This document shows positions 6,185-44,275 of a stretch of DNA of 54,223 nt, piece after piece. The notes beneath the pieces are model-generated. The model was not told the origin of the DNA. It worked only from the letters and a program-made list of their open reading frames with translations, and did not search any database. Position 1 is the first letter of the stretch, and every line of letters starts with the position of its first letter. The stretch is from Halanaerobium saccharolyticum (GTDB lineage: Bacteria > Bacillota > Halanaerobiia > Halanaerobiales > Halanaerobiaceae), in contig NZ_QLME01000022.1 in NCBI RefSeq assembly GCF_003259895.1, positions 1 through 54,223 on the forward strand. Direction: 5' to 3'. The translations under genes were made by a program, and so were the position numbers.

Positions 6185-6238
6185 GACTTTATTAATCCTG
6201 AGTGTTATACTATGTTTAAAGATACCGTATAGGGGTAT
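6183..6238 (+). promoter_or_regulatory. Copper-responsive promoter with CsoR-like operator (copy 2)
   Basis: TTGACT (6183-6188), a 17-bp spacer and TATACT (6206-6211) are followed by the operator ATACCGTATAGGGGTAT at 6222-6238. The stretch from the spacer end to the operator is almost the same as at 451-471 and 42624-42646. It drives the methyltransferase gene at 6266. Confidence 0.8.
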
Positions 6239-6265: not shown

Positions 6266-6898
6266 ATGAGTAAAAATGACACAATTAAAAAGCGATATAA
6301 TCGAATTGCTCCAATCTATGATTCATTAGAACTGCTTATGGAAAAAGGAAAAATGGGGGGCTGGCGTCAGAATCTCTGGCAGAAAGTTCAAAATAAAATT
6401 GACAAAGCTGGAATGAAGCTTCTGGAAGCTGGAGTCGGAAGCGGTAAAAATATTGAATATTATCCGGATGATCTTGAAATTTTTGCCATAGATTTTAGTC
6501 CTAAAATGCTTAAAGAGGCAGAGAAAAAGGCACAAAAATATAATAAAGAAGTTAATTTGTTGGAAATGGATATTCAGGATCTGGATTTTGAAGATAATTA
6601 TTTTGATCTGATTATCAACAGCTGTGTATTCTGCTCGGTACCTGATCCGGTTAAAGGTCTAAAAGAATTAAAAAGAGTACTTAAACAAGATGGCAGGATA
6701 ATAATGCTGGAGCATATGCGCAGCCAGAATGAATTTGTTGGTAAGATGATGGATTTGTTTAACTGGGTTAGTCTCTACACCTGGGGAGCGAATATTAATC
6801 GCAAAACAATGCAGAATATAGAAAAAGCTGGACTTGAACTGGTTGAGGTTAATGATTTGATGTCTGATATTGTTAAAGAAATTGAGCTTAAGAAGTAA
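6266..6898 (+). CDS. Class I SAM-dependent methyltransferase (UbiE-like)
   Basis: This 210-residue enzyme has the Rossmann methyltransferase motifs: LLEAGVGSGKNIEYY (motif I, about residues 52-66), an acidic residue after strand 2 in IFAIDFSP, then DLIINSCVFCSVPDP and LKQDGRIIMLEHMR. The layout matches UbiE/MenG-type small-molecule methyltransferases, but no substrate can be named. AAGGGG precedes the ATG. It is the first gene after a CsoR-type promoter and 83 bp before copZ. This ties it to the copper response, which is unusual for this family. Confidence 0.85.
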   Translation: MSKNDTIKKRYNRIAPIYDSLELLMEKGKMGGWRQNLWQKVQNKIDKAGMKLLEAGVGSGKNIEYYPDDLEIFAIDFSPKMLKEAEKKAQKYNKEVNLLEMDIQDLDFEDNYFDLIINSCVFCSVPDPVKGLKELKRVLKQDGRIIMLEHMRSQNEFVGKMMDLFNWVSLYTWGANINRKTMQNIEKAGLELVEVNDLMSDIVKEIELKK

Positions 6899-6905
6899 TT
6901 TAATC

Positions 6906-6956
6906 TTGACAGAAACACTAAGTGATGTTATTATTATTTATACCCCTTACATGTAT
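6906..6956 (+). promoter_or_regulatory. copZ promoter with CsoR-like operator
   Basis: TTGACA (6906-6911), a 17-bp spacer and TATTAT (6929-6934) form the promoter. The 17-bp element ATACCCCTTACATGTAT (6940-6956) is the same operator type in reverse orientation; its reverse complement fits ATAC-N6-GGGGTAT. It again sits at the expected transcription start. Confidence 0.72.
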
Positions 6957-7214: not shown

Positions 7215-7231
7215 ATACATGGTAGGGGTAC
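7215..7231 (+). promoter_or_regulatory. CsoR-like operator upstream of the RseC-like gene
   Basis: ATACATGGTAGGGGTAC fits ATAC-N6-GGGGTAY. TATACA (7214-7219) could be a -10 overlapping it, but I find no good -35. The site may control an internal promoter or block read-through from copZ. Confidence 0.5.
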
Positions 7232-7262: not shown

Positions 7263-7703
7263 ATGGAAGAATTAGCTACTGTAGTTAAAAGAAAAAAGAA
7301 TAAGGCAGAAGTAAAAATAATCAGACATTCTGCCTGCAGTAAATGTGATAAAAGCTGCAGTCTTGCTGGAGACAGCCATGATCAGGAAGAAATTGTGCTG
7401 GAAGTTGAAGATGAGATTGGTGTTAAGACAGGAGATCAGGTTTTAGTAGAAATGGAAAAAGGTAATCTTTTATTTGCTACTGTGGTTGTCTATGTAATTC
7501 CAATATTTTTAATGATTGCTGGATATTTTTTTGGAGTCTGGATAGCATCTTTGTTGAATACACAAGCAGCAGAACTGGCAGGTATTGCTGGTACTTTTGC
7601 TTTTTTAATTCTTTCATTTTTGATAAATAAATTATTTAACTCTCGTCTGAAAGAAATATCTTCTTTTCAGCCTAAAATCAGACGAATAATTAATAGAAGC
7701 TAA
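7263..7703 (+). CDS. RseC/MucC-family (SoxR-reducing system) membrane protein
   Basis: The protein has 146 residues. The N-terminal cytoplasmic part carries the cysteine cluster CSKCDKSC (about 23-30), followed by a small beta domain ending GDQVLVEMEKG. Two membrane helices (about 75-93 and 100-120) and a basic tail follow. This is the layout of RseC-family proteins, which accompany Rnf electron-transport complexes and sigma-E/SoxR control. Its place between copZ and copA, with a CsoR-like site 32 bp upstream, suggests a thiol or copper role. AGGAGG precedes the ATG. Confidence 0.8.
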   Translation: MEELATVVKRKKNKAEVKIIRHSACSKCDKSCSLAGDSHDQEEIVLEVEDEIGVKTGDQVLVEMEKGNLLFATVVVYVIPIFLMIAGYFFGVWIASLLNTQAAELAGIAGTFAFLILSFLINKLFNSRLKEISSFQPKIRRIINRS

Positions 7704-10503: not shown

Positions 10504-10579
10504 GAACTATAAATAAAATATAAATTATGAATTATAATTGCAAAATATAATCTAGGGAAAAGAAGAATGGGGGGGTTTG

Positions 10580-10855
10580 ATGAATTCCTTATGTGATTTA
10601 GATAAAAAAGAGTTAACAACTCGTTTAAGAAGAATAGAAGGACAGGTACGTGGTCTGCAGCGGATGGTTGAAGAAGATAAATACTGTGTCGATATCCTGC
10701 ATCAAATTAATGCGGTTCAGGGAGGCCTTAAAAAAGTTGGCCTTAAAATTTTGGATAAACATGTCCACGGCTGTGTTCAGAGAGCTGTTAAAGATGAAGA
10801 AGGCGATGATGTCATTAATGAATTGATGGAGGTACTGGCAAAATTTACTGATTAA
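10580..10855 (+). CDS. csoR: Copper-sensing repressor CsoR
   Basis: The 91-residue all-helical protein of the DUF156/CsoR family carries the Cu(I) ligand set C36, H61 and C65 (YCVDILHQI and HVHGCV). RRIEGQVRGLQRM is the DNA-contacting helix typical of the family. Apo-CsoR blocks promoters and Cu(I) releases it. ATG 10580 is preferred over TTG 10577; a G-rich stretch at 10569-10575 is the ribosome site. It lies 76 bp after copA and is the obvious candidate for binding the five ATAC-N6-GGGGTAY sites. Confidence 0.93.
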   Translation: MNSLCDLDKKELTTRLRRIEGQVRGLQRMVEEDKYCVDILHQINAVQGGLKKVGLKILDKHVHGCVQRAVKDEEGDDVINELMEVLAKFTD

Positions 10856-11639: not shown

Positions 11640-11785
11640 ATATATATCTGTTGTCTAATCTCATTCGAGAGCGGGGGACCCACTTTTTTGGGGCGAATCT
11701 ATTTTAGAAGAAGACCTTTACTTCTAGCCCGACAGCTAACTCCGTAGACCTTATTAAGGGACAGACTGCCTGTCATGGCTTTATT
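11640..11785 (+). ncRNA. c-di-AMP (ydaO/yuaA) riboswitch 1
   Basis: The conserved ydaO blocks are visible: GAGCGGGGGACCCA (11669-11682), GGGGCGAATC, an AGACC hairpin segment and AGCCCGACAGCTAACTCCGTAG (in two parts, about 11725-11746). The class binds cyclic di-AMP and usually turns off K+ uptake and cell-wall genes. The same blocks recur at 19550-19630. An intrinsic terminator at 11796 follows, then ktrB. Confidence 0.9.
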
Positions 11786-19514: not shown

Positions 19515-19645
19515 ATATTTTAAACCGCTTAATTTCAGTTTAACTGAAAGTGGGGGACCCAATTTTGTGGCTAATCCTAGTTCAGGAGAGAGACCTTTTA
19601 CTCTTAGCCCGTCAGCTAACCTCATCAGCTTATAAAAGGGAAGTA
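19515..19645 (+). ncRNA. c-di-AMP (ydaO/yuaA) riboswitch 2
   Basis: It shows the same blocks as riboswitch 1: AGTGGGGGACCCA (19549-19561), GGCTAATCC, AGACC and AGCCCGTCAGCTAACCTC (19606-19623). It lies upstream of kdp with a terminator at 19704. Confidence 0.9.
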
Positions 19646-42608: not shown

Positions 42609-42663
42609 TTGACAGGAACAATCCTGAGTGTTATACTATGTTTAAGATACCTAATAGGGGTAT
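42609..42663 (+). promoter_or_regulatory. Copper-responsive promoter with CsoR-like operator (copy 3)
   Basis: TTGACA (42609-42614), a 17-bp spacer and TATACT (42632-42637) are followed by the operator ATACCTAATAGGGGTAT (42647-42663). The 23 bases ending just before the operator match the promoter at 6197-6221 nearly base for base, although the loci are 36 kb apart. It places the DUF305 operon in the same regulon as copB and copZ. Confidence 0.82.
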
Positions 42664-42702
42664 ATTTGGGGATGAATTTGAGTTTCAAAGGAGGCCAATT
42701 TA

Positions 42703-43263
42703 ATGAAAAAATATTTAATTATTACTTTAATTATTTTAACAATTATTGCTGCAGGAGCTAATTTAACTTTTGCTCAACCCGGTCCAGGAATGATGGGACC
42801 CGGGATGATGGGTCCTGGAATGATGGAATCAGTTGACAGTGAATATGAATTTTTAGTTAAAATGATACCTCACCATGAGGAAGCAGTTGCTAATGCAGAA
42901 ATTTTAAGAGAAAATACTAATAGAGATAGAATGAGGAAATTTGCTGAAGATATTATAGAAGTCCAGACTCAGGAAATTGAAGAGATGGAAAAATATCTGG
43001 CTGAATGGTATCCAGATAGAAGCAATAATTATCAGTATCAACCAATGATGGGGAATTACGAAGGTTTAGCTGGAGAAGAACTTGATCGCGCTTTTTTAGA
43101 AGATATGATTTTTCATCACATGGGAGCAGTAATGATGTCACAGCAGTTAATTGTTCAGGGACTGGATGAACATCGCGAAGTATATTTACTTGCTCAAAGT
43201 ATTAGAGATAGTCAGCGCGAAGAAATCTTTATGATGAGAGACTGGTTAAATAACTGGTATTAG
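42703..43263 (+). CDS. Secreted DUF305 protein, copper-linked
   Basis: The 186-residue protein has a signal peptide (about 1-24), a Met/Gly/Pro repeat (GPGMMGPGMMGPGMM, about 27-41), and two DUF305 motifs: MIPHHEEAV (H57-H58) and MIFHHMGAVMMSQ. DUF305 is a ferritin-like helical family often found with copper resistance genes; Met-rich and His-His motifs suit Cu(I) binding outside the cell. AAGGAGG precedes the ATG. It is the first gene after copper promoter copy 3. Confidence 0.9.
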   Translation: MKKYLIITLIILTIIAAGANLTFAQPGPGMMGPGMMGPGMMESVDSEYEFLVKMIPHHEEAVANAEILRENTNRDRMRKFAEDIIEVQTQEIEEMEKYLAEWYPDRSNNYQYQPMMGNYEGLAGEELDRAFLEDMIFHHMGAVMMSQQLIVQGLDEHREVYLLAQSIRDSQREEIFMMRDWLNNWY

Positions 43264-43312
43264 TAAATATTGATATTACTAAATAAAATTTTTTAAAAGA
43301 GGGGGAATTATT

Positions 43313-43624
43313 ATGATGGGTTTTGGCCCTGGAATGATGGGTGGAGGATTTTCGTTTATTTTCTGGATAGTAATTATTGGAGTTGTTTACTACTTTTTTA
43401 AAGAATATAATAGAAATAACCACCACAGAAAGGACAATCGTAGACACGGTGATCACAGATCGGGTGGCCCGGGTTATAAAGATCGAAGCCGATTTGATAA
43501 TGGGAAAATAATTGAACATCAACAGAATGGAAAAAGTGCTGAGGAAATAGCAAGACAGCGCTATGCAAAAGGTGAAATTTCAAAAGAAGAATTAAGAGAA
43601 ATTCTGGATAATTTAAACAACTAA
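43313..43624 (+). CDS. SHOCT-domain membrane protein
   Basis: The 103-residue protein starts with a Met/Gly-rich segment (GFGPGMMGGGF), then one membrane helix (about 14-31), then a His/Arg-rich linker. It ends with a SHOCT domain (ARQRYAKGEISKEELREIL). SHOCT ends are short oligomerisation tails common in membrane stress proteins. The Met/His content fits copper binding. GAGGGGG precedes the ATG. Confidence 0.88.
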   Translation: MMGFGPGMMGGGFSFIFWIVIIGVVYYFFKEYNRNNHHRKDNRRHGDHRSGGPGYKDRSRFDNGKIIEHQQNGKSAEEIARQRYAKGEISKEELREILDNLNN

Positions 43625-43666
43625 CTCTAAGATAAATGATATTAAAAAATTTAAAGGGGGAAAATC

Positions 43667-44056
43667 ATGAGTGAATATGGAATCCAAAGAACAGTTAAAC
43701 TTTCTTATCAGGAAACCATTGATAAGGCAAAAGAAGAACTAAAAAAGGAAGGTTTTGGGGTTCTAACTGAGCTTGACATGAAAAAAATATTTAAAGAAAA
43801 GCTGGATAAAGAGATGAATAATTATATAATACTTGAAGCCTGTAATCCTGCTTTTGCCTTTGAAGGAATAGCAGAAGAGCCTGGGCTCGGTCTTTTACTT
43901 CCCTGTAATGTGATAGTTTATGAAACTGAGAATCAGGAAGTTAAAGTAGCAGCGGTTGACCCCGAAAAAGCACTTGGAATGTCAGCAAACAAAAGAGTAA
44001 ATGAAATTGCACAGGAAATTAAAGCACGGTTAGAACGAGTTATAGAGAATGTTTAA
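43667..44056 (+). CDS. DUF302 protein
   Basis: The 129-residue cytoplasmic protein has DUF302 signatures KLSYQETIDKAKEELKKEGFGVLTELDMK, split here as KLSYQETIDKAKEELKKEG and FGVLTELDMKKIFKEK, then IILEACNPAFAFEGI, GLLLPCNVIVYE and AVDPEKALG. DUF302 proteins recur near copper and heavy-metal genes, but the function is unknown. Cysteines in EACNP and LPCNV are the family-conserved ones. AAGGGGG precedes the ATG. It is the third gene of the copper-controlled operon. Confidence 0.9.
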   Translation: MSEYGIQRTVKLSYQETIDKAKEELKKEGFGVLTELDMKKIFKEKLDKEMNNYIILEACNPAFAFEGIAEEPGLGLLLPCNVIVYETENQEVKVAAVDPEKALGMSANKRVNEIAQEIKARLERVIENV

Positions 44057-44118: not shown

Positions 44119-44167
44119 ATATAATCAAATAATAGTAAAATTGAAATTCAATTAAAATTTAATAATT

Positions 44168-44275
44168 CATCAAGAGTGGTGGAGGGACTGGCCCTTTGAA
44201 ACCCGGCAACCTACCTATAAGGTAAGGTGCTAAATCCTGCATTTCAAAGAAATGATAGATGAGAGGAATTTAAAA
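44168..44275 (+). ncRNA. SAM-I (S-box) riboswitch
   Basis: Classic S-box blocks are present: ATCAAGAGTGGTGGAGGGA (44168-44186), CTGGCCC, TGAAACCCGGCAACC (44198-44212), AAGGTGCTAAATCC and GATGAGAGG (the 3' strand of P1, about 44258-44266). It binds S-adenosylmethionine and turns off methionine genes. Two intrinsic terminators follow before metQ. Confidence 0.95.

Follow-up and report, generated by a model that had tools for sequence, protein, structure and literature searches.

The stretch of DNA analysed here (the window) comprises 54,223 nucleotides from the 3.3-Mb draft genome of Halanaerobium saccharolyticum. Between positions 42703 and 44056 it carries three genes in the same direction, encoding a DUF305 protein, a SHOCT-like protein and a DUF302 protein, which form one tight operon with intergenic distances of 49 and 42 bases and without any terminator-like site found on the + strand between the genes. 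The outer coordinates given in the initial annotation are exact: the -35 box begins at 42609, and the DUF302 stop codon ends at 44056. The parts of the operon and the related features elsewhere in the window are:

42609..42637, + strand: promoter with -35 box TTGACA, a 17-nt spacer with the conserved CCTGAGTG, and -10 box TATACT preceded by TG
42647..42663, + strand: predicted CsoR type-2 operator ATACCTAATAGGGGTAT, TAC-N9-GTA, overlapping the presumed start of transcription
42703..43263, + strand: DUF305 (CopM-family) protein of 186 aa, Met-rich, with two HH motifs; predicted to bind Cu(I) in the periplasm
43313..43624, + strand: small SHOCT-type protein of 103 aa with a Met-Met-Gly N-terminus, one membrane helix, a His/Arg-rich loop and a C-terminal SHOCT segment
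43667..44056, + strand: DUF302 protein of 129 aa, predicted cytosolic, with invariant C59 and C80
472..488, + strand: operator of the copB operon, one mismatch to the ATACCTAATAGGGGTAT-type site
6222..6238, + strand: operator of the methyltransferase gene, exact match
6940..6956, - strand: operator of the copZ promoter, one mismatch
7215..7231, + strand: weaker operator with two mismatches, ahead of the RseC-like gene that precedes copA-csoR
10577..10855, + strand: csoR, encoding the presumed repressor of all listed operator sites

A SAM riboswitch (44164-44265) lies directly after the operon, ahead of a gene for a MetQ-like lipoprotein, and as the interval from DUF302 to this riboswitch yielded no terminator, transcripts of the operon may continue into it. 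Two c-di-AMP riboswitches (11642-11765 and 19516-19645) precede potassium-uptake genes resembling the Trk and Kdp systems.

The promoter, whose -10 box occupies 42632-42637, had been described as a near copy of those of copB and the methyltransferase gene, and local alignment of the 75-base promoters confirms this, with scores of 31 (copB) and 44 (methyltransferase), compared with at most 18 for some 3000 random 75-mers drawn from the window; the promoter-operator block is common to all three. Promoter spacers are normally not conserved. Here, the 17-base spacer is unusually constant, as its element AA.CC.GAGTG is kept in 11 relatives and, in the genome itself, is found with 0-2 mismatches at the promoters of the DUF305 operon (42620-42631), the methyltransferase gene (6194-6205) and copB (446-457), while one further two-mismatch site, on contig C7, has no operator. 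The element could possibly point to a second regulator or to a special form of promoter.

CsoR operators are G-tract pseudopalindromes that follow the rule TAC-N9-GTA / ATATACCCCTNAGGGGTATAT (PMC3902906), and positions 42647-42663 fit the published type-2 rule exactly, including the G-tract and the location at a promoter. The genome contains three exact matches to ATACC-N5-GGGGTAT, of which 0.22 would be expected from composition in 3.3 Mb, and these precede the methyltransferase gene, the DUF305 operon and a membrane-permease operon on contig C2. With up to one mismatch allowed there are only six sites genome-wide, four of them inside the window, the one-mismatch sites being those of copB, of copZ and of a region of contig C20 where ORFs are nearly absent. 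The RseC-like gene ahead of copA and csoR has a two-mismatch site before it; the two-mismatch class as a whole showed no excess over a reversed-pattern control in the genome, and the operator evidence is limited to the sites with 0-1 mismatches and this one site beside the copper cluster. A pattern with different spacing, ATACCYNNNRGGGTAT, was rejected with matches below chance, the correct spacing having been obtained by setting the promoters side by side.

The presumed repressor is encoded in the copper cluster, whose ATPases are assigned by NCBIfam to the copper-translocating subfamily, and is the sole PF02583 match in the genome. Its best PDB match is a CsoR (4m1p, E = 4.5e-24), and it keeps the Cys...His-x3-Cys ligand pattern (KYC, HVHGC). 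The proposal that the promoter ties the operon to copper is thus strongly supported and can be narrowed to CsoR, given the exact operator, the single CsoR of the genome and conservation in relatives, and copper control of the operon via CsoR is very probable from these sequence data. As paralogues of CsoR sense other signals, it is conceivable that the main signal for the operon is a different metal or stress, like silver, zinc or sulfide, acting via a non-copper sensor of the CsoR family, like CstR or RcnR, and in Haloferax the gene for a SHOCT-domain membrane protein is induced by silver, with copA induced too (PMC10694973). This explanation is improbable, as the repressor is closest to CsoR structures and retains their Cys...His-x3-Cys pattern, the operator is common to copB and copZ, and a response to Ag(I), which would mimic Cu(I), presents no contradiction to copper control.

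The exact CsoR-type operator on contig C2 (251066-251082, locus L025) lies immediately before a membrane operon of two genes, of which the second product is an ArsP_1-like permease, and a YHS-ArsP_1 permease is encoded near DUF302 in a haloarchaeon (L102). The methyltransferase (6266-6898), whose gene also has an exact CsoR-type operator before it, is of class I with UbiE/PmtA-like scores that are all below the cut-offs; relatives of it are found near DUF302 in loci L054, L057 and L071, of which the archaeal L071 also has a copper ATPase. To our knowledge, no role has been described for such a methyltransferase linked to copper. The RseC-like membrane protein (7263-7703; SoxR-reducing system family, below cut-off) is encoded between copZ and copA.

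Within the Halanaerobiales, a relative of the window DUF305 protein was identified in 16 of 38 genomes. Promoter and operator are kept in 11 of the 15 DUF305 loci that have upstream sequence, 43-85 bp upstream, the other four being without an operator, and every one of the 11 occurrences of ATAC-N9-GTAT in the 51,879 bp of these loci is at a DUF305 promoter. In five relatives (G010, G012, G015, G016 and G022) csoR and DUF305 share a contig and are 9-13 kb apart. A SHOCT gene follows DUF305 in most relatives and DUF302 follows in five besides the window; the DUF305 gene of one relative (G013, locus L015) has one in-frame TGA, which may reflect a pseudogene or a sequencing error. The likeness of the promoters could also stem from a recent functionless duplication, the three genes then being housekeeping genes of the neighbouring YeiH/alcohol dehydrogenase-like block, and this upstream block is kept in several relatives. 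However, relatives with as little as about 57-60 percent protein identity still have the operator and the spacer, whereas the upstream flank is not conserved, and in G022 (locus L011) the DUF305 gene directly precedes copB instead, so that a duplication of this type is highly unlikely.

The DUF305 protein matches Pfam PF03713 (E = 4.5e-38, 131.1 bits versus a cut-off of 27) and the CopM structure 5fej in the PDB (E = 1.2e-20), and reaches 89.1 bits for the NCBIfam CopM model (NF049983; cut-off 90), so that by Pfam, PDB and NCBIfam, the last of which falls 0.9 bits under its cut-off, it is placed with the CopM copper-metallochaperone family. The first 24 residues or so form a signal peptide as judged by eye, and the 162-aa mature protein contains 17 Met and an HH motif in each half, Met-richness and HH both being conserved in a 14-member alignment. 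Halanaerobiales have an outer membrane, and hence the term periplasm is apt. In Synechocystis, CopM is a copper-induced periplasmic protein involved in copper resistance, which binds one Cu(I) with a KD of 3.7e-16 (PMC4335983). By homology to CopM, the DUF305 protein can be expected with good confidence to bind Cu(I). The description of all three families as unknown or barely known hence does not apply to DUF305 (PMC4335983, PDB 5fej), but stands for DUF302, for which no assigned function was found.

The second protein scores 21.8 bits (E = 1.5e-4) for SHOCT (PF09851), under the 27-bit cut-off, and is hence referred to as SHOCT-like only. Its RYAKGEISKEEL segment is conserved in ten aligned relatives. 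Conservation covers M8-M9-G-G-G-F-S at the N-terminus and also the C-terminal segment, but does not extend to the His-rich loop. The HH of this protein was therefore rejected as a metal site. Of the Met-rich and His-His motifs that had been ascribed to the first two proteins, the DUF305 protein has both, while in the SHOCT-like protein the conserved Met-Met-Gly-Gly-Gly stands and the His-His does not. SHOCT genes with Met/Gly-rich starts are located 18-112 bp before DUF302 in loci from unrelated phyla (L072, L096, L110, L102 and L116), so that the pair is old. A full-text search found no literature joining SHOCT, copper and CsoR; for the SHOCT domain and copper it gave a single relevant paper, the Haloferax study on silver (PMC10694973).

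The DUF302 protein is a clear member of its family (PF03625, E = 3.2e-21, 75.4 bits versus a cut-off of 23), and its predicted structure (pLDDT 95.8) matches 1j3m and 1q9u over the full length with Z of 19-21 and TM of about 0.9. A PDB entry titled as a CrcB fluoride transporter (7tj1) aligns over the whole domain, and its title was given no weight; the weaker fold matches, to KA1 and START-like structures with Z of about 6-8, do not rise above the background given by common folds. Each of the 44 aligned DUF302 sequences, down to 20 percent identity, has both C59 and C80, where the search pattern behind many of these sequences contains the first Cys, so that the bias-free part of this result is C80 and the members found by Pfam. 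As the protein has these two Cys and no signal peptide, it is most likely cytosolic; it has no His and few Met.

The neighbourhoods of DUF302 were surveyed in 80 loci in genome contigs with 770 kb of flank. A copper-type ATPase (CPC or CPH) is encoded within 6 kb in ten loci, with 0.3 expected from a rough assumed 1.5 such genes per 4 Mb, and the ten belong to Bacteroidota, Ignavibacteria, Chloroflexi, Patescibacteria and an archaeon; among the Bacillota neighbourhoods listed no copper ATPase was seen, about five loci being outside this list. Multicopper oxidase, Met-rich and DUF305 genes are also found near DUF302 (L106, L109 and L110). In L076, from a Kaiserbacterium, csoR-ccdA-copB diverges from a two-gene operon ending in DUF302 with ATACCCCTAGGGGGTAT between them, by its sequence a second and independent CsoR-type site ahead of DUF302. 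Rhodanese genes accompany DUF302 in 14 of the 80 loci, and thioredoxin and OsmC-like genes in five each (blastp clusters, with rhodanese and thioredoxin confirmed by Pfam on cluster representatives). A TusA-like gene was seen by eye in L167, and DUF302 has been reported in the context of sox clusters (PMC5037610) and an sqr operon (PMC5061849). Judged from these gene contexts, DUF302 is not tied to copper everywhere, and other DUF302 genes are in sulfur contexts.

DUF302 might instead serve as a persulfide/sulfide or thiol-stress protein and owe its place in copper operons to the attack of Cu(I) on thiols and Fe-S clusters, while DUF305 and the pumps would carry out the copper work. The two invariant Cys, the lack of His and the few Met, together with the sulfur-related neighbours, agree with such a role. 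The CsoR-type operators that directly precede DUF302 operons in two lineages far removed from each other (the window and L076) and the Cu-ATPase neighbours in 10 of 80 loci speak against it, leaving this explanation a serious contender that falls somewhat short of even odds. That DUF302 has a thiol or Cu(I) role is, from its sequence and neighbourhoods, about an even bet. A broader and more tentative suggestion, well short of an even chance, is that the DUF302 clade with Cys-Asn-Pro / Leu-Pro-Cys represents a widespread unnamed cytosolic family, which may bind Cu(I) or Cu(I)-persulfide via its Cys pair and work with SHOCT membrane and Met-rich periplasmic proteins as a cross-membrane buffer, under the control of CsoR from Halanaerobiales to Patescibacteria.

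The best explanation of the locus, to which we give a probability of roughly 0.78, is an operon that belongs to a copper regulon under CsoR and would buffer copper in the periplasm (DUF305), the membrane (SHOCT) and the cytosol (DUF302). Without surplus copper, CsoR would occupy ATACCTAATAGGGGTAT immediately after the -10 box and prevent transcription. Binding of Cu(I) to CsoR would release it, and the operon would be made along with copB, copZ, copA and the methyltransferase. The exported DUF305 protein would then bind periplasmic Cu(I) like CopM, while the SHOCT protein would reside in the inner membrane, its Met-rich end facing outwards, and may link or anchor, and DUF302 in the cytosol may bind or help to detoxify Cu(I) by its invariant Cys pair, or repair thiol damage caused by Cu(I). 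The release of CsoR and the role of DUF305 are modelled on close homologs in tested systems, whereas the remaining steps, namely copper induction, repression by the window CsoR, topology and the parts played by SHOCT and DUF302, are inferred. The initial annotation had envisaged an extracellular and membrane copper buffer, which agrees with the signal peptide of the DUF305 protein and the one membrane helix of the SHOCT protein, but has to be widened to three compartments, as DUF302 is most likely cytosolic.

The operon thus consists of partly known parts, and the new piece is the link of DUF302 to copper handling, by which a family with a structure solved in 2004 and no assigned function found becomes directly open to testing as a copper or thiol protein, with two residues as candidates. 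The DUF302 structures TT1751 (1j3m) and APC35924 (1q9u) have the fold and the two Cys in common with the window protein (36 and 32 percent identity), yet are structural-genomics proteins without assigned function or metal. CopM of Synechocystis PCC 6803 (copMRS operon; PDB 5fej and related entries) is, like the window DUF305 protein, an exported, Met-rich, two-HH protein from a copper-controlled operon (predicted for the window), but is under two-component CopRS control in place of the predicted CsoR, and no SHOCT or DUF302 partner has been described for Synechocystis. The curA copper-tolerance cluster of Myxococcus xanthus likewise has a DUF305 lipoprotein beside copA, but differs in its regulation by CorSR and in that DUF302 and SHOCT are not mentioned (PMC3707914). 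The predicted CsoR regulon is extended to a CopM-type protein, a type that the cited literature has only under two-component control. CsoR-copZA regulons are present in both Bacillus subtilis and Streptomyces lividans. The latter resembles the window in its TAC-N9-GTA G-tract operator before copper genes and in the location of CsoR in the copper cluster (PMC3902906), whereas the regulon predicted for the window adds copB, the methyltransferase, the ArsP-type permease pair and the DUF305-SHOCT-DUF302 operon.
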